From NCBI GenBank assembly GCA_947062675.1, contig CAMSQM010000003.1:1-64000 (forward strand): DNA of 64,000 bases, given 5' to 3'. The number at the start of each line of letters is the position of its first letter. Position 1 is the first letter of the stretch. Positions 9,078 to 26,921 of this stretch are shown piece by piece. The translations under genes were made by a program, and so were the position numbers. The notes beneath the pieces are model-generated. The model ran no database searches. It saw only the letters and a program-made list of their open reading frames with translations, and was not told the DNA's origin. The DNA is from an uncultured Roseburia sp. Its GTDB lineage: Bacteria; Bacillota; Clostridia; Lachnospirales; Lachnospiraceae.

Positions 9078-10380
9078 AACATTCCTCCCAGTCTGCGGTT
9101 CCTTCCAGATACGGCTGTATCAGGGAATAAAGCGCTCCGTCATAAACGGTGGCAAGACGACAGGTATCTGCACGGTTTTCCATATCGGTCAGATCTGCAC
9201 GCAGGGTCTCGCTGATCTCACCGGGCTGTACCGGCTGTAAACTTAGTTTTTCGGTCATTTTTGCCGCGCATCCGCGCCGTACCGGCCAGCTCGTGCCGCC
9301 AACGATCAGACTGGCATTGTTTCCGCTGTGTTCCAGTGTCCCGCAGCCCTGAATTGTGTCGCTTAACAGAAAGAGCAGAAGCCTGGCGGCGGCGCCGGTG
9401 TTTTCACAGCCGGCTGAGACGGCGGCGGTGATGCAGGGCATAACGGTCAGGCTGCCGTTTTCGTTTGGAACCGGCAGGAGCCTGGCGGTATGACCGCCGT
9501 CTTCCAGAAGCCTTAGGGAGTGAGCCGGATTGACGGGAGCACCTGCCAGGATTGATGCTCCGCCCCGGATACACGATTCAAAATCCATGGCCGCCGGAAA
9601 ATCATCTTCCGAACCGCCGCTTTCTTCCATAATCCGCTTCGTCTGTTTCAGGGTCTCCTGCCAGACAGGGGTCTCCAGACAGATTCCGGCGTTTTCAACG
9701 GAAACCGGGGATACGGATGGGGCGTTCAGCAGCAGAGAGGGGACGGTGACATTCAGGTAAGGGCGCTGCTCCGGTGGCAGGGACAGCAATTGATCCACGT
9801 ATGCGGTTGTATCAGCGGCAGCTGCGTCCTCGTCAAAGCTGCCGGCGGCCAGTCCTTCGCCCGTGGCGATCAGTGCAGGACAGGTATAACTGAGCGGCAG
9901 CAGATAGGATTTTCCCTCGTACATGCCGGCCTCTTTCAGAGCCGGAATGTACGCGCCCCCGTCAAAGCCGGAATCTTCAAACAGAAAGTCAAGATCATGA
10001 AAAATGCCTCCCATAATATGGCGCTCCAGACTGGGAAAAAGCATATACTGATCAGAGTTTTCCGAGACGCGGTTAAAAAAGAGATAAATGTCCGCCCCCT
10101 CTCCTCCCATCAATTCGGTGCGTGTCCGCGTCAGCGCCGCTGTGCGGGCTTCTGTCATGGCATTGTCCTGGTTATTGACGGGCGGCAGATAGACTACTTC
10201 GAGCTCCACATCCGGGTATTTATCTTCAAATTCGGCCAGGATAGGACCTAAATGTGCCTCGGTCAGACCGTTGCCGTCCGCGCAGATGGTGAGCGTTCCG
10301 CCGGCTTTGGATGGCGTGCCGCACGCACAGAGCAGTGAGACGCATAAAACAGATAAAATGGATAAATGTTTTTTCTTCAT
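9037..10380 (-). CDS. Extracellular solute-binding lipoprotein (sugar-type)
   Basis: Signal/lipobox SVLCVSLLCACGT; SBP family 1 features; start set at MKKKHLS. Confidence 0.88.
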   Translation of the reverse strand: MKKKHLSILSVLCVSLLCACGTPSKAGGTLTICADGNGLTEAHLGPILAEFEDKYPDVELEVVYLPPVNNQDNAMTEARTAALTRTRTELMGGEGADIYLFFNRVSENSDQYMLFPSLERHIMGGIFHDLDFLFEDSGFDGGAYIPALKEAGMYEGKSYLLPLSYTCPALIATGEGLAAGSFDEDAAAADTTAYVDQLLSLPPEQRPYLNVTVPSLLLNAPSVSPVSVENAGICLETPVWQETLKQTKRIMEESGGSEDDFPAAMDFESCIRGGASILAGAPVNPAHSLRLLEDGGHTARLLPVPNENGSLTVMPCITAAVSAGCENTGAAARLLLFLLSDTIQGCGTLEHSGNNASLIVGGTSWPVRRGCAAKMTEKLSLQPVQPGEISETLRADLTDMENRADTCRLATVYDGALYSLIQPYLEGTADWEECYAAIEKEWSYLDE

Positions 10381-10598
10381 GGTAACCCCGTTTCTGCGCA
10401 CACGTATGAAATGGAGGACAGGTCCGGTGCGCCTGATAAATGTTTCTTTGCCTGAATTTATTATACTATCGCAGGACACAAAAAACAATTATGATCTGGA
10501 AATAGTTGTGAAACCCCGCTTCTTATGATAAGATAGTAAACATAAAAAACGAACAGATTCACATGACCAGCACAATAAAAACAGCAGGGAGAGATAAG

Positions 10599-11447
10599 AT
10601 GAATTCAGTTTCTGAAAAATTGACAAAGTGTTATGAGAGTGTCCGGTCCCGCACCGGTTTTACCCCGAAGGCAGCCCTGATCCTGGGATCCGGCCTGGGA
10701 GATTATGCGGACGGAATCCGGGTGGAGGATACGCTGGATTACCACGATATCGGGGGATTTCCGGTATCAACTGTCCAGGGGCATAAGGGGAGGTTCATCT
10801 TCGGATATGTGGGGGAGGTGCCGGTGGTCTGCATGCAGGGCCGCATTCACTATTATGAGGGCTATGAAATGTCCGATGTGGTTCTTCCGGTCCGACTGAT
10901 GAAAATGATGGGAGCGGAGACTCTGTTTCTGACAAATGCTGCGGGCGGAATCCAGCTGGGAATGCGCGCGGGGGATTTTATGCTGATCAAAGGTCAGATT
11001 GCAAGCTTTGTCCCGTCACCGCTGCGCGGACCCAATATCGACGAGCTCGGCGTGCGGTTTCCGGATATGAGTCAGATATATGACCCTGGTCTTCAGCGCA
11101 TCGTGAAACGGGCTGCCGTGAAGCTTGGGATAGAGCTGAGAGAAGGGGTCTATTTACAGCTTCCGGGTCCGCAGTATGAGTCGCCGCAGGAGATTGCAAT
11201 GTGCCGCACGCTGGGCGCTGACGCAGTCGGGATGAGCACGGCCTGCGAGGCGGTTGCGGCAAGGCACATGGGAATGCGGGTGCTGGGAATTTCCTGTATC
11301 TCCAATCTTGCCTGCGGTATTTCACCGGTTCCGCTGTCGCACAAAGAGGTGCAGGAGGTGGCAGACCGCGTTGCGCCGCAGTTTAAGGCGCTTGTGACTG
11401 AGGTAATTATAAATATGGCAAAAGAGCAGGAGGAGGGCGGCTGCTGA
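10599..11447 (+). CDS. Purine-nucleoside phosphorylase
   Basis: LILGSGLGDYAD, GRIHYYEGY, NAAGG and AVGMSTACEA motifs; start at MNSVSEKL after gggagag. Confidence 0.95.
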   Translation: MNSVSEKLTKCYESVRSRTGFTPKAALILGSGLGDYADGIRVEDTLDYHDIGGFPVSTVQGHKGRFIFGYVGEVPVVCMQGRIHYYEGYEMSDVVLPVRLMKMMGAETLFLTNAAGGIQLGMRAGDFMLIKGQIASFVPSPLRGPNIDELGVRFPDMSQIYDPGLQRIVKRAAVKLGIELREGVYLQLPGPQYESPQEIAMCRTLGADAVGMSTACEAVAARHMGMRVLGISCISNLACGISPVPLSHKEVQEVADRVAPQFKALVTEVIINMAKEQEEGGC

Positions 11448-11467
11448 GCGGCTGCCGGGGGACGGAT

Positions 11468-12784
11468 ATGAATACACGATTTTACAATGCAAAAATTCTG
11501 GTTCCGCTGGATAATCATAAGTATGATATTGTGACGGGAGAACTCTGGGTAAAGGGAGATACGATCTGTTATATCGGGGACGGGAAAACAGACGGGGCGG
11601 CTGATGCGGCGCCGTCCGGCATGTCCCGTCCGGAAGTTCCCGTCTGGGACCGTGAAACTGACGTGGAAGGCGGGCTGCTGATGCCGGGATTTAAAAACGC
11701 ACACACGCACACGGCGATGACATTTCTGCGCTCCTATGCGGATGATCTTCCGCTGCAGGACTGGCTCAACAGGCAGGTTTTCCCGCGCGAGGGCCAGCTC
11801 ACGGAGGATGATGTATACTGGCTGAATATTCTGGGAATTATGGAGTATCTGACAAGTGGCATCACGTCCAATTTTGATATGTATTTCTTCCCGCCGGTGA
11901 ATGCCAGGGCGTCTGCGGACACGGGATTCCGGACGGTGCAGACGAGCGGGCTCAATAATTACGGCGGTACGGTGGAGCTGATGGAGGAAAATTACCATAT
12001 CGTCCGGGAGCTGAGTGATCTGACGACGTTTCTGGTGGGATTCCACGCGGAATACACGACTTCCAGGGAGCTGATGGAGGGTGTGGCAGATCTTGCGCGG
12101 AAGCTGAAGTCGCCGGTGTGGGTGCACAACGCCGAGACGAAACTGGAAGTGGAGGAGTGTAAGGGGCGCTGGGGTATGACGCCGACGCAGCTTACGGACA
12201 GCCTTGGGATGTATGAGTACGGCGGCGGCGGCTATCACTGTGTCTGGTTCGAGGAGCCGGATTTTGAGATTTTCCGGAAAAGACATCTTACAGCCGTCAC
12301 GAATCCGGCTTCCAATCTGAAGCTGGCCTCCGGTATCTGTCCGACAAAGCGCTTTGTGGACGAGGGAATCGCCATGGCGATCGGGACGGACGGACCGGCG
12401 AGCAACAATTGCCTGGATATGTTCCGGGAAATGTTTTTAACTTCCACTCTGGCGAAGGTGCGGGAGATGGACGCGGAGTGCATCAGCGCGGATGAGATTC
12501 TCTATATGGCGACAACGGGCGGCGCACATGCGATGCAGCTGCAGGACTGTGACAGTCTTGCGGTGGGAAAGAAAGCGGATCTGATCCTGATTGATCTGAA
12601 GCAGCCGAATATGCAGCCGGAGAATAATATCATAAAAAATCTCGTCTACAGCGGCAGTAAACAGAATGTAAAGCTCACCATGGTGAACGGAAAAGTGCTC
12701 TATGAGAACAATCATTTTGAGATCGGTTTTGATCCGGAAGAGATATACAGGCGTGCCAATGAGATTATCGGGCGTATGAAATAG
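11468..12784 (+). CDS. Amidohydrolase (MTA/SAH deaminase, TRZ/ATZ family)
   Basis: PGFKNAHTHTAMTFLRSYADDLPLQDWL, VHNAET and GTDGPASNNCLDMF motifs. Confidence 0.88.
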   Translation: MNTRFYNAKILVPLDNHKYDIVTGELWVKGDTICYIGDGKTDGAADAAPSGMSRPEVPVWDRETDVEGGLLMPGFKNAHTHTAMTFLRSYADDLPLQDWLNRQVFPREGQLTEDDVYWLNILGIMEYLTSGITSNFDMYFFPPVNARASADTGFRTVQTSGLNNYGGTVELMEENYHIVRELSDLTTFLVGFHAEYTTSRELMEGVADLARKLKSPVWVHNAETKLEVEECKGRWGMTPTQLTDSLGMYEYGGGGYHCVWFEEPDFEIFRKRHLTAVTNPASNLKLASGICPTKRFVDEGIAMAIGTDGPASNNCLDMFREMFLTSTLAKVREMDAECISADEILYMATTGGAHAMQLQDCDSLAVGKKADLILIDLKQPNMQPENNIIKNLVYSGSKQNVKLTMVNGKVLYENNHFEIGFDPEEIYRRANEIIGRMK

Positions 12785-12799
12785 GCAGGGGATTCTGAC

Positions 12800-13558
12800 A
12801 TGAAGGTGATTTTTATTCATCACAGCTGTTTCCTCATAGAGGTGGACGAAAAGGTGCTGATTTTTGACTGGTTTGCAGGAGACCGGGTAAACGGGTTTCA
12901 TTTTGGAGGCGTGATTCCGGAATATGAGCCGGACACGCCTGTCTACGTATTTGCAAGCCATAAGCACCGGGATCATTTTGACATGGATGTGCTCCGCTGG
13001 GCAGAGCGCTATGCGGATATTCACTATATTTTTTCAAAAGACTGTAAGATGAGTCCGAATTTTCTCGGAAAACACGGGATTGCGTCTGCGGTGCGGGAAA
13101 AGATCCGCTATGTGACGGCGAATGAAAAGTACCGGATCGGAGATCTCTTTGTTGAGACATACCGGTCGACGGACGCGGGCGTGGCGTTTTACGTGGAGAC
13201 AGGCGGGGCCTCTTTTTTCCATGCCGGTGATCTGAACAACTGGAAATGGGAAGGGGCCGGCGGTCTTGTCAACGGCGCCATGGAGGCATCCTACAAAGGG
13301 CAGATTCTAAGACTTTCCGGAAAAAAGATTCATCTGGCTTTTCTGCCGCTGGATCCAAGGCAGGAGCAGTATCAGGGGCTCGGGATGGATTATTTTCTCG
13401 CTCATGTGGATGTGGATTATGTTTTTCCGATGCATATGTGGAGGGACTATGCAGGGATCCGGGAGTATAAGAAAAAAATCTCAAACGCGGCGATGGCGGA
13501 CAGGATCGTGGAGATCGCGTGTGAGAACCAGGTATTTGAAATTCAGGAAGAAACTTGA
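12800..13558 (+). CDS. MBL-fold metallo-hydrolase (UlaG-like)
   Basis: IHHSCFLIE, SHKHRDHFD, FHAGDLNNW motifs. Confidence 0.85.
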   Translation: MKVIFIHHSCFLIEVDEKVLIFDWFAGDRVNGFHFGGVIPEYEPDTPVYVFASHKHRDHFDMDVLRWAERYADIHYIFSKDCKMSPNFLGKHGIASAVREKIRYVTANEKYRIGDLFVETYRSTDAGVAFYVETGGASFFHAGDLNNWKWEGAGGLVNGAMEASYKGQILRLSGKKIHLAFLPLDPRQEQYQGLGMDYFLAHVDVDYVFPMHMWRDYAGIREYKKKISNAAMADRIVEIACENQVFEIQEET

Positions 13559-13584
13559 CGGATCAGAAACATCTGCGTTATACT
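13555..13584 (+). promoter_or_regulatory. Sigma-A-type promoter TTGACG-N18-TATACT
   Basis: -35 13555-13560, -10 13579-13584; upstream of small ORF and alaS. Confidence 0.65.
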
Positions 13585-13679
13585 GAAATGCAGAAATGTT
13601 TTCCGGAGAACGGGTCTTTGCGCTTATGCCGGATCTGATTTGCACGGAAGATGCGTACGGACGGAACGGAGGTGACGGT

Positions 13680-13787
13680 ATGGCTTTTATCGGCTGGCTG
13701 GGACATTATTTACTGGTATTTCTGGCGCTGGCAGCAGTCGCGGTGCTGGGCGTTTTTGCGGGAAAGAAGCTGAGTGACCGCAGGTAG
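13680..13787 (+). CDS. 35-aa single-TM small protein MAFIGWLGHYLLVFLALAAVAVLGVFAGKKLSDRR
   Basis: Start refined within track ORF 13596; ggaggtgacgg RBS; one TM helix then GKKLSDR. Confidence 0.7.
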   Translation: MAFIGWLGHYLLVFLALAAVAVLGVFAGKKLSDRR

Positions 13788-13833
13788 ACAAGAATCTGCT
13801 TCACGGCAGATGAATATTTTGGAGGAATAAGTC

Positions 13834-16503
13834 GTGAAAAAGTTTTACGGAGAAAACGAACTGCGCAGGATGTTCCTTGCTTTTTTTGAAAGCAGGGAAC
13901 ATCTTGTTATGAAGAGTTTTTCGCTGGTACCGCACAATGACAAAAGTCTGCTTTTAATCAATGCGGGTATGGCGCCGCTCAAGCCCTATTTTACGGGGCA
14001 GGAGTTACCGCCGCGCAGGAGGGTTGCGACATGTCAGAAATGTATCCGCACCGGTGATATTGAGAATGTGGGCAGGACGGCGAGACATCTGACATTTTTT
14101 GAAATGCTCGGAAATTTTTCGTTTGGTGATTATTTTAAAAAGGAAGCGATCACGTGGTCGTGGGAGTTTCTGACGGAAGTGCTGGGGCTTGAGGCGGACA
14201 GGCTTTATCCGTCTGTTTACGGGGAGGATGACGAGGCGTTTGCGATCTGGAACAGGGACATCGGAATCCCTGCGGAGCGCATCACCCGGTTTTACCGCGA
14301 TCAGGAGACGGGAGCGTGCGATAATTTCTGGGAGCACGGCGCGGGTCCGTGCGGACCGTGCTCGGAAATTTATTATGACCGCGGCGTGAAGTACGGCTGC
14401 GGCAGACCGGACTGTAAAGTGGGCTGTGACTGCGACCGTTTTATGGAAGTCTGGAACAATGTATTTACCCAGTTTGAGGGGGACGGCCACGGGAATTATG
14501 AGGAGCTGGAGCAGAAAAATATTGATACCGGGATGGGGCTTGAGCGCCTGGCGGTGGTGGTGCAGGATGTTAATTCCGTGTTTGATATCGACACAATGAA
14601 GGCTATCCGCGACAGGGTCTGCGCGCTGTCAGGAACGACGTATCAGACGGATGCGCTCTCCGATGTCTCCATCCGCCTGATCACGGATCATATCCGCTCT
14701 GCGACATTTATGGTGTCGGACGGTATTATGCCGGCGAATGAGGGCAGGGGTTATGTGCTCCGGCGTATTATCCGGCGCGCGGCAAGGCACGGGAGGATGC
14801 TGGGCATCGAGGGAAGCTTTATGGCCGGTCTCGCCGCGACAGTGATTGCGGAGAGCAAAGACGGTTATCCGGAGCTTGACGAGAAGCAGGAATTCATTTA
14901 TAAAGTGCTGACGCAGGAAGAGGAAAAGTTCAGCCGGACGATCGACCAGGGACTTGCGATTCTGGAAGAGATGCAGGCGGAGCTTGCCGCTGCGGGAGAA
15001 AAGGTGCTTTCCGGTGAAAACGCGTTCCGGCTCTATGACACGTTCGGCTTTCCGGCAGATCTGACCAGGGAGATTCTGGAGGAAAGAGGTTTTTCCATCG
15101 ACGAGGCCGGTTTTGAGGCGGCAATGAAGGTGCAGCGCGAGACTGCGCGCAAAGCCCGTAAAGTGACAAATTATATGGGGGCGGATGCGACCGTGTATGA
15201 GTCCATCGATCCGTCCGTCACATCGGAATTTGTGGGATATGACCGCCTGATCCATACGTCTGAGGTCACGGTGATGACGACGGACACGGAGATCACCGAG
15301 GCGCTCTCCGACGGGGAGTCCGGCACGATTTTTGTGAGAGAGACGCCGTTTTATGCGACGATGGGAGGACAGAATGCGGATACGGGCGAGATCCGGAGTG
15401 CGGACGGTTCGTTTGTATTCTGTGTGGAGGACACGGTAAATCTTCCCGGCGGAAGGGCGGGCCATATCGGAAGAGTCATAAGCGGTATGGTGAAGACGGG
15501 CGATACGGTGGAATTGCGCGTGGACGCCGCGAAACGCTCCGCGACCGGCAAAAATCACTCCGCGACCCATCTGCTTCAGAAAGCGCTCCGCGAAGTGCTG
15601 GGCAGCCATGTGGAACAGGCCGGATCGGATGTCAACCCGGATCGTCTGCGCTTTGACTTTTCACATTTTTCCGCCATGACGCCGGAGGAGCTTAAATCAG
15701 TGGAGGCAATTGTAAATGAGAAAATTGCCGCCGCGCTGCCGGTTGTGACGGAGGTTATGAGCCTTGAGGAAGCCAGAAAGACGGGCGCAATGGCTCTTTT
15801 CGGGGAAAAATACGGTGAGAGTGTGCGGGTCGTTAAAATGGGTGATTTTTCCGTCGAGCTCTGCGGCGGTACGCATGTCGCAAATACCAGCTCGATTGTG
15901 TCGTTTAAAATTCTCTCGGAGACGGGGGTTGCGGCCGGTGTCCGGCGTATTGAGGCGCTGACGGCGCGCGGAGTGGCGGCGTATTATGACCGGATCGAGG
16001 AAGAGCTTTTCTCGGCGGCGAAGGCGGCGAAGACCACACCTGCAGCCCTGACGGAGAAAATCGGACATCTCATGGCGGAATTAAAGGCTCTGCAGAGTGA
16101 GAATGAATCTTTAAAGAGCCGGGCCGCAAAGGATGCGCTGGGGGATGTGATGGACCAGACCGTGGAAGTAAATGGCGTGAAGCTTCTGGCGGCCAGCGTT
16201 CCCGATGTGGATATGAACGGTCTGCGTGATCTCGGCGATCAGCTGAAGGAAAAGCTTGGCGAGGGTGTTGTAGTGCTGGCTTCCGTAAAAGACGGAAAGG
16301 TGAACCTGATTGTGATGGCGACAGACGGAGCGCAGGCGGCGGGAGCCCACGCTGGAAATCTGATTAAGAGTATTGCCGGAAAAGTTGGCGGAGGAGGCGG
16401 CGGACGTCCGAATATGGCGCAGGCCGGCGGTAAGAATCCGGCGGGGATTCCGGATGCGGTTGCCGCGGCGCGGGAGGCGCTCGCAGGACAGGTGCAGGGA
16501 TGA
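13834..16503 (+). CDS. alaS: Alanyl-tRNA synthetase
   Basis: Full-length class II AlaRS, SATHLLQKALREVLG, LCGGTHVANT; GTG start with ggaggaa RBS. Confidence 0.98.
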   Translation: MKKFYGENELRRMFLAFFESREHLVMKSFSLVPHNDKSLLLINAGMAPLKPYFTGQELPPRRRVATCQKCIRTGDIENVGRTARHLTFFEMLGNFSFGDYFKKEAITWSWEFLTEVLGLEADRLYPSVYGEDDEAFAIWNRDIGIPAERITRFYRDQETGACDNFWEHGAGPCGPCSEIYYDRGVKYGCGRPDCKVGCDCDRFMEVWNNVFTQFEGDGHGNYEELEQKNIDTGMGLERLAVVVQDVNSVFDIDTMKAIRDRVCALSGTTYQTDALSDVSIRLITDHIRSATFMVSDGIMPANEGRGYVLRRIIRRAARHGRMLGIEGSFMAGLAATVIAESKDGYPELDEKQEFIYKVLTQEEEKFSRTIDQGLAILEEMQAELAAAGEKVLSGENAFRLYDTFGFPADLTREILEERGFSIDEAGFEAAMKVQRETARKARKVTNYMGADATVYESIDPSVTSEFVGYDRLIHTSEVTVMTTDTEITEALSDGESGTIFVRETPFYATMGGQNADTGEIRSADGSFVFCVEDTVNLPGGRAGHIGRVISGMVKTGDTVELRVDAAKRSATGKNHSATHLLQKALREVLGSHVEQAGSDVNPDRLRFDFSHFSAMTPEELKSVEAIVNEKIAAALPVVTEVMSLEEARKTGAMALFGEKYGESVRVVKMGDFSVELCGGTHVANTSSIVSFKILSETGVAAGVRRIEALTARGVAAYYDRIEEELFSAAKAAKTTPAALTEKIGHLMAELKALQSENESLKSRAAKDALGDVMDQTVEVNGVKLLAASVPDVDMNGLRDLGDQLKEKLGEGVVVLASVKDGKVNLIVMATDGAQAAGAHAGNLIKSIAGKVGGGGGGRPNMAQAGGKNPAGIPDAVAAAREALAGQVQG

Positions 16504-16615
16504 GAATGCCAGGAGGAATCAGCTTTGGACGTGAGAAGTCTCAGGCGGAATTCCGGCAGAAAGTAGACGGACAATTCGGAGAGAAGACTGAATTTTTTTG
16601 AAATAAGAAAAACAG

Positions 16616-16643
16616 TTGACGAAAAAGAATTCTGTGTTATAAT
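16616..16643 (+). promoter_or_regulatory. Promoter TTGACG-N16-TATAAT for rpsU
   Basis: -35 16616-16621, -10 16638-16643. Confidence 0.75.
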
Positions 16644-16720
16644 ATAGGATAGTGCAATGAAATGACCCAAACAGTTGAATATGCACAATACGCAACTGGA
16701 GGGAGGTTAGGTGTGGGATA

Positions 16721-16897
16721 ATGTCCAGTGTGATCGTAAAGGAAAATGAGACTTTAGACAGCGCATTACGCCGTTTCAAGAGAAACTGCGCAAAGGCTGG
16801 TATTCAGCAGGAGATTCGTAAGAGAGAGCATTACGAAAAGCCGAGTGTAAAGCGCAAGAAAAAGTCTGAAGCAGCAAGAAAAAGAAAATACAATTAA
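16721..16897 (+). CDS. rpsU: 30S ribosomal protein S21
   Basis: 58-aa [61 protein letters not shown], below the ORF-track cutoff. Confidence 0.96.
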
Positions 16898-16920
16898 TGC
16901 TGAGATGATTCATGAATGGA

Positions 16921-16952
16921 AAAAGCTGTCGCGATAAGCGACAGCTTTTCTT
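16921..16952 (+). terminator. Rho-independent terminator after rpsU
   Basis: aaaagctgtcgc-gataa-gcgacagctttt hairpin. Confidence 0.8.
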
Positions 16953-17084
16953 GCGTTAAACAGACTATAAATATAGTATAAATATATTTATCACGCAGAC
17001 CGGAAGCGCCGGTTTTGCAGGAAACTGCGCCGCCAGATATATGCAGAGCGTGTGAGATACTATTTTTTATGTCGAAAAAGGCTA

Positions 17085-17113
17085 TTTACAAAGTACTAAA
17101 GTATTGCTATAAT
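17085..17113 (+). promoter_or_regulatory. Promoter TTTACA-N17-TATAAT upstream of eroded phosphatase/kinase locus
   Basis: -35 17085-17090, -10 17108-17113, 17-nt spacer. Confidence 0.7.
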
Positions 17114-17580
17114 TGACGTAAATGAAGGTGTTTGTAGTTTTAAAATGGGGAGACTGGAACAGCAAAGCTGGGATTTGTTATCGGAGACAGTGATGAATAA
17201 TATACCCGGAGACTGTCTGATTGTGCCGCGTTTCATTTTGGGGAAAAGATTGAAATGTAGTCTTTTACGGAGCCGGGGGCTTCGTGCATTTCTGCAGAAA
17301 AACCAGGTGAATGGGTGTTTGTGAGCGGTATTTTTTCTGTCCGGCTCTCCATTGGGGAGAGCGTCTGTATTGCAAATCAGGTATTTGGTTCGATCTGCGG
17401 ATTCGGGATTCCGGATGTTATTGTGAATGACGACATCACGGAGGAAAGTCCGCGAATCTGAGGTACCTGATATGCTTCAGTCGATGAACACAGGACAGGG
17501 GCAATCTCTGTTTTTCTGTGTCTGATCCTGCTGCCGGCACCTGTATCCGGCGCTCTTGTCACGGGTGCCGTGCGGATTTT

Positions 17581-17946
17581 ATCACTCGGAAGGTCTGGTA
17601 TCGGAGGCAGGAGAACTGGCGATGAATACCGGGCTTTCCCGCTATGATACGGAATTCATACGGTGTTGCGGGGGTTGAAATCTGTGTGATTCTGCAGTGT
17701 ATCGGAGCGTGAACAGAGCCTCAGCCGGATACGACTGATCTGCTCTGTTCAGGCGGGGTTCGTCATAAGATCACTGCAGGTGAGACCGGGGCCTGTTTTT
17801 TTCCGGAGTTTTTTCCGGGACCGGATCAGATGAACGAGCGGCGGAGGCATCTGACTGAACTGGCGAAAGAGCGCGGAGAGCGCGATAACATCACGGTATT
17901 TGCGATAAAAGAGGTCGGAGAGACAATGGGAGAAAGATATGGATGA
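17581..17946 (+). pseudogene. Remnant of a PP2C-family Ser/Thr phosphatase gene
   Basis: Frame-disrupted motif series: VILQCIGA-stop-TEPQPDTTDLLCSGGVRHKIT...HLTELAKERGERDNITVFAIKE, matching PP2C C-terminal blocks; its stop overlaps the kinase start. Confidence 0.75.
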
Positions 17947-20200
17947 CATGGAAAGAGAGTTTGCCGAGACCTATGAAATTCTCGGAGAGATCGGAAAAGG
18001 AGGCGGGGGTGTTGTCTATAAGGCATATCATAAAAGGCTGCAGAAGGAAGTCGTCTTAAAAAGAATTCACAGTAATCTGAAAAATATCAATACCAGGGCG
18101 GAAACGGACATCCTGAAAAATATGCGGCATGCCTGTCTGCCCACGGTTCTGGATTTTCTGGAAATCGGCGGGAATACCTATACAGTAATGGACTATATCC
18201 GTGGGAAATCATTGAATGAATGTCTGGATGAAAGACAGCAGTTTCCGCAGACAGAGATCATTGACTGGTTCCGGCAGCTGTGCGAGGCGCTGACGCTGCT
18301 CCATTCACAGAACCCGCCGATTATTCACGGGGATATCAAACCTGCCAATATTATGCTGATGCCTTCCGGGAAGATCTGTCTGATTGATTTTAATATCGCT
18401 GGAGTTTTTGAGGGAGATCACGCCACGGTTTCCGGATACACGCCGGGGTACGCGTCGCCGGAACAGATCCGGTGCTGCTGTCAGTGCATCAGAAAAAGCG
18501 GAGAAGCTGTTCCGGCGGGCTGGCAGCAGGGATTCCCTGAGGAGGAGATGCTTTCCGCGGGTATGGAGGCTCCCCCGGTGTCCGGGTCAGGAGATTCAGG
18601 TGTGCAGGAGGATGTGGTTCTTTTACAGGCAGGGGAGAATTGCGGGGAGCTGCGGTGGAATATACAGGGAGACTTTCTGCCGGAGGCGGGCGGGAGGGTT
18701 CCGGCAGAAATGCAGTGTGCGGCTTCGCGGGATGAGAACCGGGAGACGGTGGATGTGCGGACGGATATTTACAGTCTGGGAGCGACGATATATCATCTTC
18801 TGACCGGAGAAAGGCCCGGACTGGCACCGGTGCCGGAGATCCGGGAGCGGATTGCGGATATAAATGAACCTCTGGCGGGGATTGTTATGAAATGCCTGAA
18901 AGAGGATCCCGCGGAGCGCTATCAGAAGGCGGAGGAGTTCTCCCACGCGCTGGGCAATATCTATACTTCCACGAGCGCCTATCAGAGCCTTCTGAAAAAA
19001 CAGAAATTCGCGCGTGCGCTGCTGTGCGCCGGTATCGTCGGGTTTCTTGGGCTGGCTTATGCCGGGAGTCTTAAGATGCGGCAGGAACAGGACTATGCTT
19101 ATCAGGAGCTGGTGAGCCGGGAGAGCGGGGCTGCGGACAGGGAAGACTGGGAAGAAATGGAGGCGTACTGTTCACAGGCGTCCGGTCTGTTTCCGGAGCG
19201 TGCGGAAGCTTATCAGATTAAGGGGGAGGCGCTGTACCAGAGGGGAGAATACGAGGAGGCAGTCCGTTTTCTGACCGGGGCAGCGCTCCCCTATACGGAG
19301 GAAGGGGACGGACGCGCGAATCTGTTTGTACTGGTGGCAAACTGCTATTTTGAGATGGAGGATTACGCACAGGCAAAAACAGCGCTGGAAGAGGCGCTTG
19401 GCTTCGGCGGAACCGAAAACAGCGGAACAGGAAACAGTACGGTGTACCGGGATTATGCCGTGACGCTCGCACGGCTTGGCGATACCGCAAAAGCGACGGA
19501 AATTCTGGGAATCGCGATCCGTCAGGGACTGGGCGATGACGGACTTCACTACACCAGCGGGGAGATTGCCTGCGCGTCCGGAAAATATCAGGATGCCTTG
19601 GAAGAATTTGCAGCCGCAGCCGCTGATTCGGATGACGGATATCTGAAAATGCGTGCATATGTGATGCAGGAAGAGATCATGGCGAAGCTGGAACAGACAC
19701 CGGAACGCTGTGAGGAGAGGATTGCACTGCTGGAGAAGGCACAGGAGGAACTGCCGGTGCAGTATCTGAATGCCATACTCAGACAGCTTGTGCAGGCGTA
19801 TCTTGATTATGCAGATTCGGGCGGTGGAAAGCAGGCATGCCGGGACGCGATCGGAGTGCTGAGGGAGATGGAATCCTATCAGTGGGATACGTACATTATA
19901 CACCAGAATGTGGTGATTCTGTGTCAGAAGCACCAGCTGTTTGAGGAGGCAGAGCAGGAACTGGGGAACATGCTTAAGCTGTACGGGGAGGATTACAGGA
20001 CTTATAAACATCTGGCATTTCTGGAGGTCTCCAGAGAAAACCAGAAAGAAATGGGAGATCGGGATTACACATCGTTCCGTTCCAGGTATGAGCGGGCGCT
20101 GGAGCTTTATGAGGAGCAAAATACACACAATCAGACCGACGCCGATATGGAAACACTCAGGAGACTTTATCTGGAGGCGGAGCAGGGCGGCTGGTTTTAA
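17939..20200 (+). CDS. Transmembrane Ser/Thr protein kinase with C-terminal TPR-like repeats
   Basis: GEIGKGGGGVVYKA, VVLKRI, IIHGDIKPANIML, LIDFNIAG, GYASPEQ, TDIYSLGATIYHLLTG; TM helix ALLCAGIVGFLGLAYAG then TPR-type helices. Confidence 0.93.
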   Translation: MDDMEREFAETYEILGEIGKGGGGVVYKAYHKRLQKEVVLKRIHSNLKNINTRAETDILKNMRHACLPTVLDFLEIGGNTYTVMDYIRGKSLNECLDERQQFPQTEIIDWFRQLCEALTLLHSQNPPIIHGDIKPANIMLMPSGKICLIDFNIAGVFEGDHATVSGYTPGYASPEQIRCCCQCIRKSGEAVPAGWQQGFPEEEMLSAGMEAPPVSGSGDSGVQEDVVLLQAGENCGELRWNIQGDFLPEAGGRVPAEMQCAASRDENRETVDVRTDIYSLGATIYHLLTGERPGLAPVPEIRERIADINEPLAGIVMKCLKEDPAERYQKAEEFSHALGNIYTSTSAYQSLLKKQKFARALLCAGIVGFLGLAYAGSLKMRQEQDYAYQELVSRESGAADREDWEEMEAYCSQASGLFPERAEAYQIKGEALYQRGEYEEAVRFLTGAALPYTEEGDGRANLFVLVANCYFEMEDYAQAKTALEEALGFGGTENSGTGNSTVYRDYAVTLARLGDTAKATEILGIAIRQGLGDDGLHYTSGEIACASGKYQDALEEFAAAAADSDDGYLKMRAYVMQEEIMAKLEQTPERCEERIALLEKAQEELPVQYLNAILRQLVQAYLDYADSGGGKQACRDAIGVLREMESYQWDTYIIHQNVVILCQKHQLFEEAEQELGNMLKLYGEDYRTYKHLAFLEVSRENQKEMGDRDYTSFRSRYERALELYEEQNTHNQTDADMETLRRLYLEAEQGGWF

Positions 20201-20214
20201 TAAAGGAGGAAGAG

Positions 20215-20346
20215 ATGTCACTGGGTGTAATGATGTTTTCCGGGGGAATCGCGGGGGCTGCGCTGTGCCTGATTCTGCTTCTGTCTTCCTGGAAACTCTT
20301 TGCGGTTCAACGGAAAAAGCTGCTGGAATTTCTGGAAAAAATGTGA
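20215..20346 (+). CDS. 43-aa membrane microprotein MSLGVMMFSGGIAGAALCLILLLSSWKLFAVQRKKLLEFLEKM
   Basis: Perfect aaaggagga RBS, one TM helix; not in ORF track. Confidence 0.65.
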   Translation: MSLGVMMFSGGIAGAALCLILLLSSWKLFAVQRKKLLEFLEKM

Positions 20347-20362
20347 GTGGGAGAAATGGTCG

Positions 20363-23344
20363 ATGAAAAGCAGATTCGGTGAACTGATGAAAAAGTCAGG
20401 GACGGCAGGAACCCGTAAACTGCTGGTGGCAGTGCTGACAGTGACGTTTGGCGTTGGCAGTATCGGTCTGGCCTACGCGGGCGGCAATACGAACAGCCGG
20501 CTGGAAAGAGAACTTTCCCTGGGAGACAGATACCTGGAAGATATGGACTATGAGCAGGCTATCGCTGCGTACGAGGATGCACTTGCAATTGATGACAAAT
20601 GCGTGGAGGCATATCTGGGATTGTCGGAAACCTATTTGAAGATGGGTGATATCGACAAGGCAATTGATATCCTTCTTCGAGGTATTGAAAAGACGGGTTC
20701 CCAGGAGCTTATGGACAGGCTCAGTGAACTCAGGGACGGGCAGGAGCAGGATGATCCGGAGGAAGAAGCGGCTGAGGAGAAGCCTGAAGGCGGAGCCGGT
20801 GGCGCAGGGGACAGCGGAACAGACGCGGCAGACGCGGATGGCGGAACACCGGAACCGTCGGCGGGTGGCGGAACCCTGGATGAGGATGAAGAATCCGGAG
20901 AGGATCCTGATAAGCCGCAGGAACACCCGAGAAGGCCGGAAAACGGGGAGAGTGATGATGCGGAAACCCCGGATGGAGAGGATAATTCTCAGGATGATGC
21001 CGGAAATGCGGACGGGACCGGGGACGCGGGCAATTCCGGCGATACCGGAAACACGGATGGCTCCGGTGGCGCAGGGGGCAGCGGAAATGCAGATGGTTCC
21101 GGAGGACCGGGAAATACCGGAAGTACAGATCTCCCGCCGGGACGGCTGGAGGCAGAAGATACAGACGGCGGAGAGGATACCGGCAAAACGGATAGTGACA
21201 GATGGCCGGACGGCGGTATCAGCCCGGAAGACCCCAAAGACACGGAAATACCGGAAATACCGGAAACCCCGGAAGATTCCACAAATACAGAAGATTCCGG
21301 CCAGCCGGAAGTTCCGGAAGGAACCGGCCAGCCCGGGGAAACAGATCAGCCCGGAAATACGGAAGAAACGCAGGAACCGGGGAACACGGAAACGCCGGGA
21401 GATACGGTTCAGCCCGGAAATCCGGCCCCTCCGGAATTACCCGGAAATACAGATGGAACGGAGAAACCGGGAAGTACAGAGAATCCGGGCGGAGAGCAGG
21501 GAGAACGGGATTATGGTACGATTATCGGAAGGGTTGCGGCGGCGGCCAGTCCGGAGAATGTAATCAGCGGTGCGGAAATTCAGATCTACACAAGCGGCAA
21601 CAGGGAGCTGAAGGAAGTAGTCACCACGGATGAGGCCGGGAATTACCGGGCGACGCTCCCGGGCGGTGAGTACTACATTGTTGTCAAAAAAGAGGGGTAT
21701 CTGACGCTGATGGATTATCAGGTGACAATCAGAAATGAACAGACTGTTTATATTGAGCTTTATCTGATGGCGGAAGATAACGGAAGCACGGAGAAGACAG
21801 GAAAAGTCAGAGGCAGCATTACAAATGCTGTCACTGGTCAGAACATTCCCGGGGTGGCGCTGACACTCAGGAGCGGCTGGAATCATGTGAGCGGAGGGGA
21901 AACCGTGGCATCGCTGGTCACAGACGGCAACGGATATTATGAGACAGAGCTGCCATATGGAAACTATACGGTGCTGATGGAGAAAAACGGCTATATTTCC
22001 AGCCACTTTAACATTACTGTGACAGCCGGTGGTGTGCTGAACGGGAACGGAACACTCAATCCGTCTGCTGAGGGCACCATTCCTCTGGGAGATATGCGCG
22101 TTATTCTGACATGGGGGGAGACACCCAGGGACCTGGATTCTCATCTCACAGGGCCGACTGTCGATGGGAACGGGCAGTTCCATGTGTATCCTACCACGAA
22201 AACTTATGCTGTCGGAAATCAGGTGATAGCAAATCTGGATGTTGATGATACGAATTCCTTTGGCCCTGAGACGGTTACCGTGTATCAGATGAATACGCAG
22301 GGGATATACAGGTACTATGTACATGATTTCACGAATAAGACAGATGGATCAAACAGACAGATGTCGGATTCGGGAGCTCAGGTCAATGTTTATTTCGGTG
22401 AAGTACTGTATGCGACATTCCATGTACCCGCTAATCAGGCTGGAACGAGATGGCATGTTTTTGATCTGGATGCCGGACGAAAGATTCTGACACCGGTCAA
22501 TGAGATGGCTCACGGCCTGGTGCCTTCCAGCAGCCGGATGATGGAGAAGGGAAAGCGGGGGGAAGCCGTGGAAGATACGGGAGCCGGATTGATTTCAGAA
22601 GAGATGCCGGTCCTTTGGGAGAGTGATCCGCAGGAGCAGCCGCGTGGTGCCGGATTATCCGGAGGCGTGAAAAACAGTGTGCTTCCGGAGCGCAGCGGTG
22701 AAGAAGAGAATAACACAGACGGGCGGCCCCGTGGAGATGACATCCGGGATGAGGTGTGGCAGGAAATAGCTGTGCCGGATCCGGGGAATGAGGAGGGATT
22801 TGTGCCTGAACCGGATGAGGGAGAAGATGCAGGACCGGAAGGCGGGGAGGATTCCATGCCGGAAGACAGAGAGGAGCTGCAGCCGGAAGAACCCGAAGAA
22901 GGCGGAGCAGAGCCGCAGCCGGAAGAATCCGAAGAAGGCGGAGAGGAGCCGCAGCCAGAGCCGGAGGTGACAGAACCGGAAGGCGGAGAGGAGCCGCAGC
23001 CAGAGCCGGAGAAATCCGGAATAGTTGTACCGGAGGAATCGCAGCCAGAGCCGGAGATGGTTGTACCGGAGGAATCGCAGCCTGTGCCGGGGGAGCCGGA
23101 GATGGTTGTACCGGAGGAATCGCTGCCGATGCCGGAGGAGCCGCAGCCTGCGCTGGAAGAGACGGGGCTGGAATCGTGGACGGTGACACAGGCTGCTGAT
23201 CCGGCATGTGTGCCGGAGGCGGAGAGCGCGCAGGCCGGGTCCGGCGGCCGCGAGCCATGGAACAGCGGACAGGATAAAATCCACCGGGAGGATGCCGGAC
23301 TTCCTGAAAAAAAGGTAGAGTGGGAAGAGCTGGTGACAGAGTAA
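20363..23344 (+). CDS. TPR protein with low-complexity linkers, two carboxypeptidase-regulatory/Cna-B-like domains and a DUF2135-like domain
   Basis: N-terminal TM, TPRs (GDRYLEDMDYEQAIAAYEDAL), IIGRV...GNYRATLPGGEYYIVVKKEGY and GSITNAVTGQNIPGVALTL repeats, LTWGETPRDLDSHLTGP block, Glu/Pro-rich tail. Confidence 0.8.
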   Translation: MKSRFGELMKKSGTAGTRKLLVAVLTVTFGVGSIGLAYAGGNTNSRLERELSLGDRYLEDMDYEQAIAAYEDALAIDDKCVEAYLGLSETYLKMGDIDKAIDILLRGIEKTGSQELMDRLSELRDGQEQDDPEEEAAEEKPEGGAGGAGDSGTDAADADGGTPEPSAGGGTLDEDEESGEDPDKPQEHPRRPENGESDDAETPDGEDNSQDDAGNADGTGDAGNSGDTGNTDGSGGAGGSGNADGSGGPGNTGSTDLPPGRLEAEDTDGGEDTGKTDSDRWPDGGISPEDPKDTEIPEIPETPEDSTNTEDSGQPEVPEGTGQPGETDQPGNTEETQEPGNTETPGDTVQPGNPAPPELPGNTDGTEKPGSTENPGGEQGERDYGTIIGRVAAAASPENVISGAEIQIYTSGNRELKEVVTTDEAGNYRATLPGGEYYIVVKKEGYLTLMDYQVTIRNEQTVYIELYLMAEDNGSTEKTGKVRGSITNAVTGQNIPGVALTLRSGWNHVSGGETVASLVTDGNGYYETELPYGNYTVLMEKNGYISSHFNITVTAGGVLNGNGTLNPSAEGTIPLGDMRVILTWGETPRDLDSHLTGPTVDGNGQFHVYPTTKTYAVGNQVIANLDVDDTNSFGPETVTVYQMNTQGIYRYYVHDFTNKTDGSNRQMSDSGAQVNVYFGEVLYATFHVPANQAGTRWHVFDLDAGRKILTPVNEMAHGLVPSSSRMMEKGKRGEAVEDTGAGLISEEMPVLWESDPQEQPRGAGLSGGVKNSVLPERSGEEENNTDGRPRGDDIRDEVWQEIAVPDPGNEEGFVPEPDEGEDAGPEGGEDSMPEDREELQPEEPEEGGAEPQPEESEEGGEEPQPEPEVTEPEGGEEPQPEPEKSGIVVPEESQPEPEMVVPEESQPVPGEPEMVVPEESLPMPEEPQPALEETGLESWTVTQAADPACVPEAESAQAGSGGREPWNSGQDKIHREDAGLPEKKVEWEELVTE

Positions 23345-23395
23345 AAATCAGTCGGAAACAGACAGTTCACTTTTTTAAGAGAAATTTTACAGGGG

Positions 23396-23434
23396 AAATC
23401 ACAGCCGGATACTGAGGCCGGCTGTGATTTTTTT
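23396..23434 (+). terminator. Rho-independent terminator
   Basis: aaatcacagccgg / ccggctgtgattt stem then T-run. Confidence 0.85.
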
Positions 23435-23600
23435 ATTACTTTTTTTCAGAATAAAAATATGTTATAGTTTAACACAGGACGTCTTATGCCCGGAACAATG
23501 GTTTTCTAAGAAAGAAACGGAACAGGCTGCTTTGATGACAGAGTGACGTCATGTGACTGTGAAGTGGCGGGAAGCGCAGACCGGGGAGAGGGGAATAAAG

Positions 23601-23629
23601 TTGACATCCTGTTTACCGGGATATAGTAT
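23601..23629 (+). promoter_or_regulatory. Promoter TTGACA-N17-TAGTAT
   Basis: -35 23601-23606, -10 23624-23629. Confidence 0.55.
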
Positions 23630-23753
23630 AGAATCTGGAAAAGCAGGAAAGAAAGTGCGGCGTAAGTATGCCGGGGCCGGCTGTGGTATCGGTTATCCCG
23701 GCGACAGTCAGGGGCATTGTGTGGATCAGAAGTCCAGGGAAGGAGTATGTTTT

Positions 23754-25022
23754 ATGAACATTCAGCGTGGTTTCAGGGATAAAATCGAAAAGTATGCCGA
23801 TCCGGACAGGGAGATTACGGTTGAAATGAAAGTGGACGGCGGAGATATCTATGATTTCTGCTGTTTCGGTGTGGATGCGGAGGGAAAGCTTTCGGATGAC
23901 CGCTACATGGTATTTTATAACCAGACCCGGTCGCCGGAAGAGGAGATTGCCTATTCGCCGGCAGGGACCGGGGCATGCTTTGTGTGCCGCCTTAACAGGC
24001 TTCCCGCAGCCATCAGTAAATTGGTATTTACGGTGAGCATAGACGGAAACGGGACGATGGGAAATATTGTTTCCCATATTCTGACAATCAGACAGGATGG
24101 GCAGACTGTCGCGGAAATGTGTCTGACAGGGAATGATTTTCAGGCGGAAAAAGCCATCATTGCCATTGAGATATACAGAAAAGATGTCTGGCGGTTTGCC
24201 GCCGTGGCGGGTGGTTTTAACGGCGGCCTTGGCGATCTTCTCCGGTATTACGGCGGGGAAGAAATCAGCCCTCAGGAGCAGCCTTCCGGGCCGGCGCAGC
24301 CGGAGCCGGAGCCGCAGCCAGAGCCTGTGAAGGTATCGCTGGAAAAGAGGCTTGAGAGAAGTGCGCCGCAGCTGGTTTCCCTGGCAAAACCGCTGGAGAC
24401 TGAGCTAAAAAAGCGCAACCTGATGAATTGTACCGCCCGTGTTGCCCTGGTTCTTGATATCTCCGGCTCCATGTGCGTAAGGTACGGCGATGGGACTGTC
24501 CAGGAAATTGTGAATAAAACGCTGCCTCTTGCAGTACAGTTTGACGATGACGGTGAACTGGATTTCTGGTATTATGGCAGCCGTCCGAAGAGAATGCCTT
24601 CCGTGAATATGAGTAATTACGGGGAGGCGGTTCCCCGCAACTGGAGCGGGCTGATGAATTCTCTCGGGGGTGGAAACAATGAGCCTCTTGTCATGCAGGA
24701 AGTTCTTGCGGAATACCGGAAAAGCAGACTGCCCGTGTATGTATTATTTATCACGGACGGCGGTGTCGGCTCTGAGCGTAAAATAAAAAAGATACTGACG
24801 GAGGCATCGCATGAACCGGTCTTCTGGCAGTTCGTCGGAGTGGGCGGGTCTGGTTATGGCGTGCTTGAGAGGCTTGATAATATGGACGGCCGTTATGTGG
24901 ACAACGCAGATTTCTTTGCGCTGGATGATTTCAGAAGCGTTCGCAGCTCTGAACTCTACAGCCGTCTGCTCGACGAATTTCCACAGTGGCTGGCGGATAT
25001 AAAGCGGAAAGGAATGATTTAA
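23754..25022 (+). CDS. TerD-like + vWA domain protein (TerF-like)
   Basis: YMVFYNQTRSPE and WRFAAVAGGFNGGLGDLLRYYGG TerD blocks; MIDAS ALVLDISGSM; start at MNIQRGF after aaggag. Confidence 0.82.
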   Translation: MNIQRGFRDKIEKYADPDREITVEMKVDGGDIYDFCCFGVDAEGKLSDDRYMVFYNQTRSPEEEIAYSPAGTGACFVCRLNRLPAAISKLVFTVSIDGNGTMGNIVSHILTIRQDGQTVAEMCLTGNDFQAEKAIIAIEIYRKDVWRFAAVAGGFNGGLGDLLRYYGGEEISPQEQPSGPAQPEPEPQPEPVKVSLEKRLERSAPQLVSLAKPLETELKKRNLMNCTARVALVLDISGSMCVRYGDGTVQEIVNKTLPLAVQFDDDGELDFWYYGSRPKRMPSVNMSNYGEAVPRNWSGLMNSLGGGNNEPLVMQEVLAEYRKSRLPVYVLFITDGGVGSERKIKKILTEASHEPVFWQFVGVGGSGYGVLERLDNMDGRYVDNADFFALDDFRSVRSSELYSRLLDEFPQWLADIKRKGMI

Positions 25023-25112: not shown

Positions 25113-26921
25113 ATGGGGATTTCAATGATTCTTACACTTCTCAGCGGGGTGGCTTTGTTTTTGTACGGAATGGCGCTGATGGGGGACGGTCTGAAAAAAG
25201 TGGCCGGCAATAAGCTGGAGCTGATTCTTTACCGTCTCACAAACACGCCGCTCAAGGGCGTGCTGCTCGGCGCCGCTGTGACGGCGGTTATTCAGTCGTC
25301 CTCGGCGACCACGGTGATGGTTGTGGGGTTTGTGAACTCCGGCATGATGAAAGTATCACAGGCGATCGGGATAATCATGGGGGCGAATATCGGCACAAGT
25401 ATTACGGGCTGGATTCTGTGCCTGTCCTATCTCGACAATGCGAACGGGGTCGCGCAGCTTTTGTCCACCGCGACGATCTCGGCGATTGTGGCGATAGCCG
25501 GTATTGTATTCCGGATGTTTTCAAAGAGGGTGGTTTACCGCAGTGTCGGGGATATTATGCTGGGATTTTCCATACTGATGACGGGGATGCAGTCGATGAG
25601 CGGCGCGGTAGCCCCGCTGCGGGAGAACGGGCAGTTCATTAATATGCTGACGATGTTTTCCAATCCGTTTATGGGGATTGTGCTTGGTATTCTGATCACG
25701 GCGGTGCTGCAGAGCGCCTCCGCCTCGGTCGGTATTCTGCAGGCTCTCTCGGTGACGGGGAGCATCAGTTTTGCGACGGCGCTGCCGATTATTATGGGAA
25801 TCGGGATCGGGGCGGCCTGTCCTGTCCTTCTATCCGCGGTCGGGACGAACCGGAACGGAAGGCGGACGGCGCTGGTGTACCTGAATAATGACCTGTTCGG
25901 GATGGTGTTCTGGTCGGTGGTGTTTTACACGGCCGATGCAGTTGTACATTTTGCGTTTATGGATATGGTGATGAGCCCGTTTTCCATCGCGCTGATGAAT
26001 ACCGTCTACCGGACGGCAACAATTTCGCTGCTGCTGCCGTTTGTGAAGTATATTGAGAAGCTTGTGTTTTTTCTGGTGCGGGATACACCGGAGGACGTCG
26101 AGGACACGGCGGACTTTGATCTTCTGGAGGAGCGTTTTCTGGCGTATCCGGCGCTTGCGATTGTGCAGAGTCATATGGCGATGAACGGAATGGCGAAAAA
26201 GGCGCGGAAAAATATCGGACGAGCGATTTCTCTGGTGGAGGATTATTCCAGGGAGAAGTTCGCCAAGGTGCAGGAGAAGGAAAACCTGATTGATAAGTAT
26301 GAGGATAAGCTTGGCACTTATCTGATGCAGCTGACCGGAAAGGAAATGACCGAGGGACAGACCAAACAGGTGTCCAAGTTTCTGCACACGATCAGCGATT
26401 TTGAGCGCCTGGGCGATCACGCGGTCAATATTTCCATCGTCGCAAATGAGCTGCACGATAAGAAGATTACATTTTCCGAGGATGCGTGGTATGAGCTGGG
26501 CGTGCTCAAAGCCGCAATCCGGGAGATTGTCTGCACGACGGTGGATTCATTTCAGGAGGATGATCTTTTATCCGCGGGCCGTGTGGAGCCCCTTCGCGAG
26601 CTGATCGGTATTCTCTGCGATGAGATGAAGCTGCGCCATATTGCAAGGCTCCGGACCGGGGCCTGCGATATGAAACAGGGCTTTGCGTTTAATGATCTTT
26701 TAAACAATCTGGAACGGATCGCCGATCACTGTTCGAATGTCGCGGTGGCCATGATCGAGCTTGAAGCGCGGAATTTTGACACACATGAATATTTAAAGAG
26801 CGTGCGGGAAATGAAAAATGCGGATTACACGGCGTATTTTGAAGAGTATCAGGCGCGGTATAACATTAATTCGTTTACAAAAAAGCAGAAAGGGAAATCG
26901 GAGAAGAAATCTAGGTCCTGA
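25113..26921 (+). CDS. Na/Pi cotransporter family protein with C-terminal PhoU-like domain
   Basis: Duplicated QSSSATT / QSASASVG repeats and PhoU-like helices (FERLGDHAVNI, NLERIADHCSNVA). Confidence 0.95.
   Translation: MGISMILTLLSGVALFLYGMALMGDGLKKVAGNKLELILYRLTNTPLKGVLLGAAVTAVIQSSSATTVMVVGFVNSGMMKVSQAIGIIMGANIGTSITGWILCLSYLDNANGVAQLLSTATISAIVAIAGIVFRMFSKRVVYRSVGDIMLGFSILMTGMQSMSGAVAPLRENGQFINMLTMFSNPFMGIVLGILITAVLQSASASVGILQALSVTGSISFATALPIIMGIGIGAACPVLLSAVGTNRNGRRTALVYLNNDLFGMVFWSVVFYTADAVVHFAFMDMVMSPFSIALMNTVYRTATISLLLPFVKYIEKLVFFLVRDTPEDVEDTADFDLLEERFLAYPALAIVQSHMAMNGMAKKARKNIGRAISLVEDYSREKFAKVQEKENLIDKYEDKLGTYLMQLTGKEMTEGQTKQVSKFLHTISDFERLGDHAVNISIVANELHDKKITFSEDAWYELGVLKAAIREIVCTTVDSFQEDDLLSAGRVEPLRELIGILCDEMKLRHIARLRTGACDMKQGFAFNDLLNNLERIADHCSNVAVAMIELEARNFDTHEYLKSVREMKNADYTAYFEEYQARYNINSFTKKQKGKSEKKSRS

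Follow-up and report, generated by a model that had tools for sequence, protein, structure and literature searches.

Do the genes for a membrane kinase, a 43-residue membrane protein, a large surface protein and a TerD-vWA protein that stand in tandem in an uncultured Roseburia genome form a single stress-sensing system, or are they neighbors of different origin? The window analyzed here, the whole stretch of 64,000 nucleotides at the start of contig CAMSQM010000003.1, belongs to a draft genome of 3.0 Mb in 87 contigs (94.9% complete) whose relatives are Lachnospiraceae. The locus was read in this one assembly, in which a misjoin or a missing contig is possible; in the scan of the genome's contigs, an alignment used as the query gave matches and a single protein gave none. 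On the plus strand, between alaS-rpsU and the gene for a Na/Pi cotransporter, approximately 850 bp of non-coding DNA is followed by genes for a 753-aa kinase, a 43-aa ORF, a 993-aa protein and the 422-aa TerD-vWA protein, in the order and at the coordinates previously given for these consecutive elements. The preliminary description had taken all of them, together with an eroded PP2C phosphatase gene, as the best candidate for an undescribed system, possibly an envelope or metal/stress phospho-relay linked to Ter. Kinases, PP2C phosphatases and vWA proteins are known partners in Ter neighborhoods.

The left boundary is rpsU, encoding ribosomal protein S21 (16721-16897, plus strand; Ribosomal_S21, E 2.5e-24), and the right boundary is the cotransporter gene (25113-26921, plus strand; Na_Pi_cotrans, E 1.1e-57); both lie outside the cassette, by which we mean the kinase, the small protein and the surface protein. 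The promoter claimed at 17085 corresponds to a promoter-like site at 17085-17113 (plus strand), TTTACA-17-TATAAT with TG before the second hexamer, which agrees with 11 of 12 consensus positions and is called by consensus match only. The block was absent at the flanks of alaS-rpsU in 29 relatives and at the flanks of nptA in 29 relatives, and in no relative did the TerD-vWA gene or the cassette lie next to the Na/Pi cotransporter. Because the flanks occur in relatives without the block, the block appears either to have been inserted sporadically or to have survived in this lineage only. The site 3' of alaS or alaS-rpsU is apparently variable, with different genes following among relatives (L303-L331).

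The non-coding DNA was searched by translating positions 16900-17960 and comparing them with proteins of related loci, and then with the Tad locus of G042, a genome of the same genus (GenBank 'uncultured Roseburia'). The first piece recognized (17345-17443, plus strand) matches approximately residues 50-83, in the N-terminal part of TadA, a CpaF-type ATPase, with 56% identity to TadA of L271. It scored 34.3 bits, whereas 1000 shuffles gave at most 25.8 and 417 control stretches at most 25.4; Pfam assigns the TadA references to the T2SSE ATPases (E 2e-60). A TadA motif region, RESEVPDMLQSMNTGQGQSL, comes next (17445-17510, plus strand; 59% identity to the G042 TadA fragment, E 0.004); individually, the TadA fragments are short, at 22-33 residues. 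The N-terminal ~55 codons of a DUF5702 Tad pseudopilin lie in two frames at 17492-17657 (plus strand), in pieces 63% and 68% identical to the G042 DUF5702 protein (E 7.6e-6), and the C-terminal third of a PP2C gene, broken by an in-frame stop and a gap, occupies 17686-17934 (plus strand; 46% identity to the G042 PP2C, E 4.7e-17). The best scores for TadA, DUF5702 and PP2C each exceeded those of all 1000 dinucleotide shuffles and of all 417 other stretches of the window.

These fragments are colinear (TadA, TadA motif, DUF5702, PP2C), with several frame changes, and stand in the canonical order of a Tad locus 5' of the cassette. Points in DUF5702 and PP2C that are ~7 kb apart in G042, as estimated from coordinates, are 35 bp apart here. 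No intact TadA-type ATPase gene is present at the locus, which holds fragments only (17345-17510), and of the pilin and pseudopilin genes (Flp, TadE, DUF5702) none is intact, the DUF5702 N-terminus being the only trace. The eroded PP2C of the preliminary description was thus partly right: a PP2C piece is there, but it makes up only the last ~250 bp, and the remainder holds pieces of TadA and DUF5702. Because the fragments are colinear, the frame shifts several times and the PP2C piece contains a stop, the remnant is, judged by sequence, a decayed whole Tad locus and more than a decayed phosphatase. In the G042 Tad locus (L332:4834-18000, contig C1), TadA is only a 139-aa fragment and the genes 5' of it are non-Tad, phage-like by eye; the G042 locus may be disrupted too.

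At the other end of the block, the TerD-vWA gene (23754-25022, plus strand) encodes the domains that had been claimed, a TerD domain (PF02342, E 4.7e-23) and then a TerF-type vWA domain (vWA-TerF-like, PF10138, E 5.7e-73). The 422-aa protein shares this architecture with TerF of ter operons but is solitary here, and the genome's own TelA/TerD/YceG cluster is elsewhere, on contig C46. It is conceivable that kinase, PP2C and TerD-vWA protein work together as a single Ter-type relay for stress or metals in which the Cna/TPR protein is the envelope sensor, as their consecutive arrangement on one strand and the company of kinase, PP2C and vWA in Ter neighborhoods would suggest. However, a strong intrinsic terminator closes the cassette at 23396-23435 (hairpin 23396-23430, plus strand; 13-pair stem, T run, -20.7 kcal/mol, z -6.1), and a promoter-like site, TTGACA-17-TAGTAT, lies 5' of the TerF gene at 23601-23629 (plus strand; 10 of 12 consensus positions). 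Because both lie between the cassette and the TerD-vWA gene, the two are not one unit, contrary to what was first supposed, and we judge the TerD-vWA protein, which by these signals has its own transcription unit, to be outside the cassette.

TerF also stood beside none of the 75 other kinases compared here. Its relatives in G206 (58% identical), G394, G369 and G040, and the TerD-only relative in G078, had no kinase, microprotein-linked kinase, TPR or PP2C gene of the cassette type in the stretches fetched around them, some of which are on short contigs. A TerF-type vWA domain above the family cut-off occurred in 5 of 299 Lachnospiraceae genomes. Furthermore, the PP2C that was to complete a Ter triad is dead and is the phosphatase of a Tad locus. 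The co-location check proposed with the preliminary description went against TerF in other genomes, where vWA, PP2C and kinase did not form one co-located unit, and the Ter link falls with it. We consider the relay extremely improbable; the TerD-vWA protein is most likely an orphan TerF, a neighbor by chance.

What remains between the Tad remnant and the terminator begins with the kinase (753 aa; 17939-20200, plus strand). It had been described as a transmembrane Ser/Thr kinase with TPRs, and a kinase domain (Pkinase, E 1.1e-37), a TPR ectodomain and one transmembrane segment were indeed found. Its AlphaFold model (pLDDT 81) contains a disordered insert of ~75 residues (193-268) after the SPE motif. 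The Hanks-type residues, VAIK Lys, HxD Asp, Asn and DFx Asp, are all present, and K41, E55, D132, N137 and D150 are invariant in an alignment of 15 kinase homologues; the kinase has a predicted conserved active site. Throughout the family, DFN replaces DFG and the middle residue of HxD is variable (HGD/HSD/HCD/HRD; alignments A1/A3, window 17939-20200). A Hanks-type domain, one transmembrane segment and an ectodomain are also features of the PASTA kinases (PrkC/Stk1/PknB), but the window kinase differs from these by its TPR ectodomain in place of PASTA and by DFN; it scored 148.6 bits with the PASTA kinase model NF033483, for which the cut-off is 450, and Pfam found no PASTA repeats.

A tree built from 75 kinases placed the window kinase with that of G042 (SH-aLRT 100) and then with that of G212 (99), both of which are Tad-linked. 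Kinases of Tad and type VII loci were intermixed in this tree, so that kinship by itself does not tell which machine a kinase serves. Codon-position identity to G042 was 64/70/41%, values that, as read from the alignment, show purifying selection in the past, with the periods before and after the decay pooled.

The 43-aa transmembrane protein proved to be a conserved one-span ORF (20215-20346, plus strand) and a partner of the kinase family. A first profile, made from six copies, had 47 matches at E<0.01 among 10,872 small ORFs, and 46 of these adjoin a kinase. With the second-round profile, 57 of 58 matches did so, compared to 5.6% of small ORFs generally. Nothing better than E 1.4 was obtained among 6474 small ORFs from loci of other bacteria, and no model in Pfam or NCBIfam matched the microprotein. 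By these profile matches, it is a real family and a near-obligate neighbor of such kinases, located 3' of kinases of ~600-800 aa and 5' of those of ~950 aa. An N-out/C-in orientation is suggested, because the C-terminus is basic.

The third gene (20363-23344, plus strand) encodes a surface protein of 993 aa, with an N-terminal transmembrane segment, TPRs, long acidic and Pro-rich linkers, two CnaB/CarboxypepD_reg-like domains and an unnamed beta domain (Pfam: CarboxypepD_reg, E 5e-20; TPR_19, E 3e-10). The preliminary description had named it a TPR-CnaB-DUF2135 protein, of which the TPRs, linkers and CnaB-like domains stood and DUF2135 did not, there being no Pfam match to it at E <= 0.1. The TPR N-terminus is 56-62% identical to three G042 TPR proteins. 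The C-terminal part, with its CnaB/transthyretin-like domains and the unnamed beta-rich domain, is found again in TPR proteins from type VII-like loci as well as in further surface proteins, and the protein therefore looks modular. An AlphaFold model of the CnaB region matched CnaB/TTL-like pilin and adhesin domains in fold; these matches are indicative only, because model confidence was low (pLDDT 61).

Kinase, TPR/Cna surface protein and microprotein, for which co-location in other genomes had also been proposed as a check, do occur together there. In G042 the genes run in the order DUF5702, TadE, prepilin peptidase, TPR/WG, DUF6382-FHA, PP2C, kinase, microprotein and three TPR proteins, and the gene order of the G212 Tad locus is the same. 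The window has in common with these and other Tad (Flp) pilus loci of Lachnospiraceae (G042, G212, G090 and others) the PP2C-kinase-microprotein-TPR order and the homology of the upstream genes. It differs from them in that all pilus genes, the FHA reader and the PP2C are lost or fragmentary, and in that its surface protein carries a CnaB-type C-terminus, which the G042 TPR proteins lack. When a Tad locus was defined by at least two of four marker genes, 15 of 76 kinases were in Tad loci with no FtsK/EssC or WXG100 in reach, and these 15 were accompanied by the microprotein in 14 cases, by PP2C in 13 and by DUF6382-FHA in 11. A survey of tad loci from 2011 (PMC3244431) makes no mention of a kinase, FHA protein or phosphatase.

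The window kinase family was also found in type VII-like loci. Under a stricter label, in which an FtsK over 1200 aa or a WXG100 protein marks type VII, 24 of 75 kinases were in type VII-like loci and 17 were with Tad genes; since the loci were chosen by kinase similarity from related genomes, such counts express association and not frequency. Apparent EssC matches on ~770-aa proteins with five transmembrane segments (L241, L243, L246, L247) were judged to be FHA cross-hits and carry no type VII label in the tree. A giant Ig-repeat protein, kinase, (microprotein), TPR/CnaB protein, one-span FHA protein and FHA-FtsK ATPase form a recurrent order in nine loci (L131, L136, L139, L252, L253, L256, L258, L261, L265); the Ig-repeat proteins are often 2200-2900 aa, and no WXG100 was seen in the fetched stretches.

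The T7SSe and T7SSj systems, in the text of Garrett et al. 2024 (PMC11217815) as read here, include a kinase TsxD (TseD/TsjD, with a TPR C-terminus in TsjD), a PPM phosphatase TsxF, the DUF6382-FHA protein TsxJ and the one-span proteins TsxH/TsxK, and Tad genes adjoin T7SSg and T7SSh; that text does not assign the kinase cassette to Tad loci, for which we came across no account of it. The window kinase has the TsxD features, being a membrane kinase with a conserved active site and a helical/TPR C-terminus, and the likeness extends to the phosphatase, the DUF6382-FHA protein and small one-span proteins, with the microprotein fitting the printed description of TsxH/TsxK (the comparison is by description only). 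Because T7SSe/T7SSj have been described with related versions of the kinase, the phosphatase, the FHA protein and small membrane proteins (PMC11217815), the term 'undescribed system' was too strong. What stands of the proposed envelope phospho-relay, apart from its link to Ter, is a predicted phospho-signaling module with a surface TPR/Cna protein and the microprotein.

Given these likenesses, it might be asked whether the cassette was acquired free-standing, or whether it is part of a type VII secretion system and not of the Tad locus; similar kinase-microprotein-TPR/CnaB sets do occur in type VII-like loci, and for 33 of the 75 kinases the stretch that was fetched contained neither machine. 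In contrast to T7SSe/T7SSj, however, the window locus has no FtsK/EssC-type ATPase, with no FHA-FtsK ATPase (TsxC) among the ORFs around the cassette, and the genome, at 94.9% completeness, has no WXG100 protein (TsxA). The fragments directly 5' of the cassette are those of Tad and PP2C genes in canonical order, and the nearest kinases are Tad-linked. A T7SS origin of the remnant was ruled out on the same grounds, its genes being Tad and WXG100 being absent from the genome, and we regard a free-standing or type VII origin of the cassette as very unlikely. FHA domains occur at three places in the genome, in short proteins (frames of 179-388 aa).

Thus, it appears, with a probability that we put at roughly 70%, that a second Tad-pilus gene cluster once stood here and that the locus is what was kept of its 3' end, with its kinase orphaned and possibly acting in trans. 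All genes up to and including PP2C would have collapsed to ~600 bp of fragments, leaving the kinase, microprotein and TPR-CnaB genes open, and the kinase would be an orphan because its phosphatase, reader and pilus have been lost from the locus. The decay, the gene order, the kinship of the kinase and the linkage of the microprotein can be read in the DNA, and from them we infer signaling and action in trans.

It could be argued that the three genes are simply a dying relic, open only since decay has yet to reach them and without present function. The partners have disappeared; a search of other relatives did not turn up the complete block, which is missing from both flanks there. On the other hand, the three genes span ~5.3 kb without a stop or frameshift, right beside a fragment with several frame changes; the catalytic residues are kept, and the surviving genes lie between a promoter-like site and a terminator. 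These observations make a mere relic unlikely, although it is the rival to which we give the most weight.

If the locus is the orphaned end of a Tad cluster, its predicted topology would place the kinase domain inside the cell and the TPR solenoid outside, with the TPR-CnaB protein anchored by its N-terminus and extending its long linkers outside. The TPR ectodomain of the kinase and the TPR surface protein may meet in the cell wall and report the state of the pilus or envelope, and the microprotein, in the membrane beside the kinase, may tune or stabilize it. In a complete cluster, the kinase would phosphorylate Thr sites, the DUF6382-FHA protein would recognize these at the base of the pilus, and PP2C would reset the switch.

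A possible target for the orphan kinase is present in the same genome (G000). Contig C30 carries an intact-looking Tad locus (~10300-20800; L230, L113) with genes for TadA, a T2SSF protein, a Flp1-like pilin, DUF5702 (the genome's only intact copy), DUF6382-FHA (E 2.6e-48), an A24 peptidase and a rhomboid protease, and no kinase or PP2C gene is found beside it. Because C30 has a DUF6382-FHA reader with no adjacent kinase or PP2C, action of the window kinase on it in trans is possible. A separate cluster on contig C4 (50000-65500; L231) contains a DUF4280 (PAAR-like) protein, PP2C, two FHA places, DnaJ, a vWA protein and several large proteins without any Pfam match, and resembles no recognized system.

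The locus is best read as the orphan survivor of a Tad-pilus regulatory cassette that has relatives in type VII systems as well. More widely, and as a tentative proposal to which we give somewhat less than even odds, the TPR-ectodomain kinase, its near-obligate one-span microprotein and a TPR surface protein, with PP2C and DUF6382-FHA, may be a portable envelope phospho-switch that two unrelated machines, the Tad pilus and type VII secretion, have in common across Clostridia, one that can outlive its machine and be kept, as here, as a free-standing sensor acting in trans on another pilus locus. The ~45-residue conserved membrane microprotein would serve as a marker for the cassette, and neighborhoods of the kinase/PP2C/TerD-vWA kind can be accidental. 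One interchangeable cassette would then underlie the phosphorylation-based control of both Tad pili and type VII secretion, and the orphan cassette, together with a second, kinase-less Tad locus in the same genome, would amount to a natural deletion experiment.
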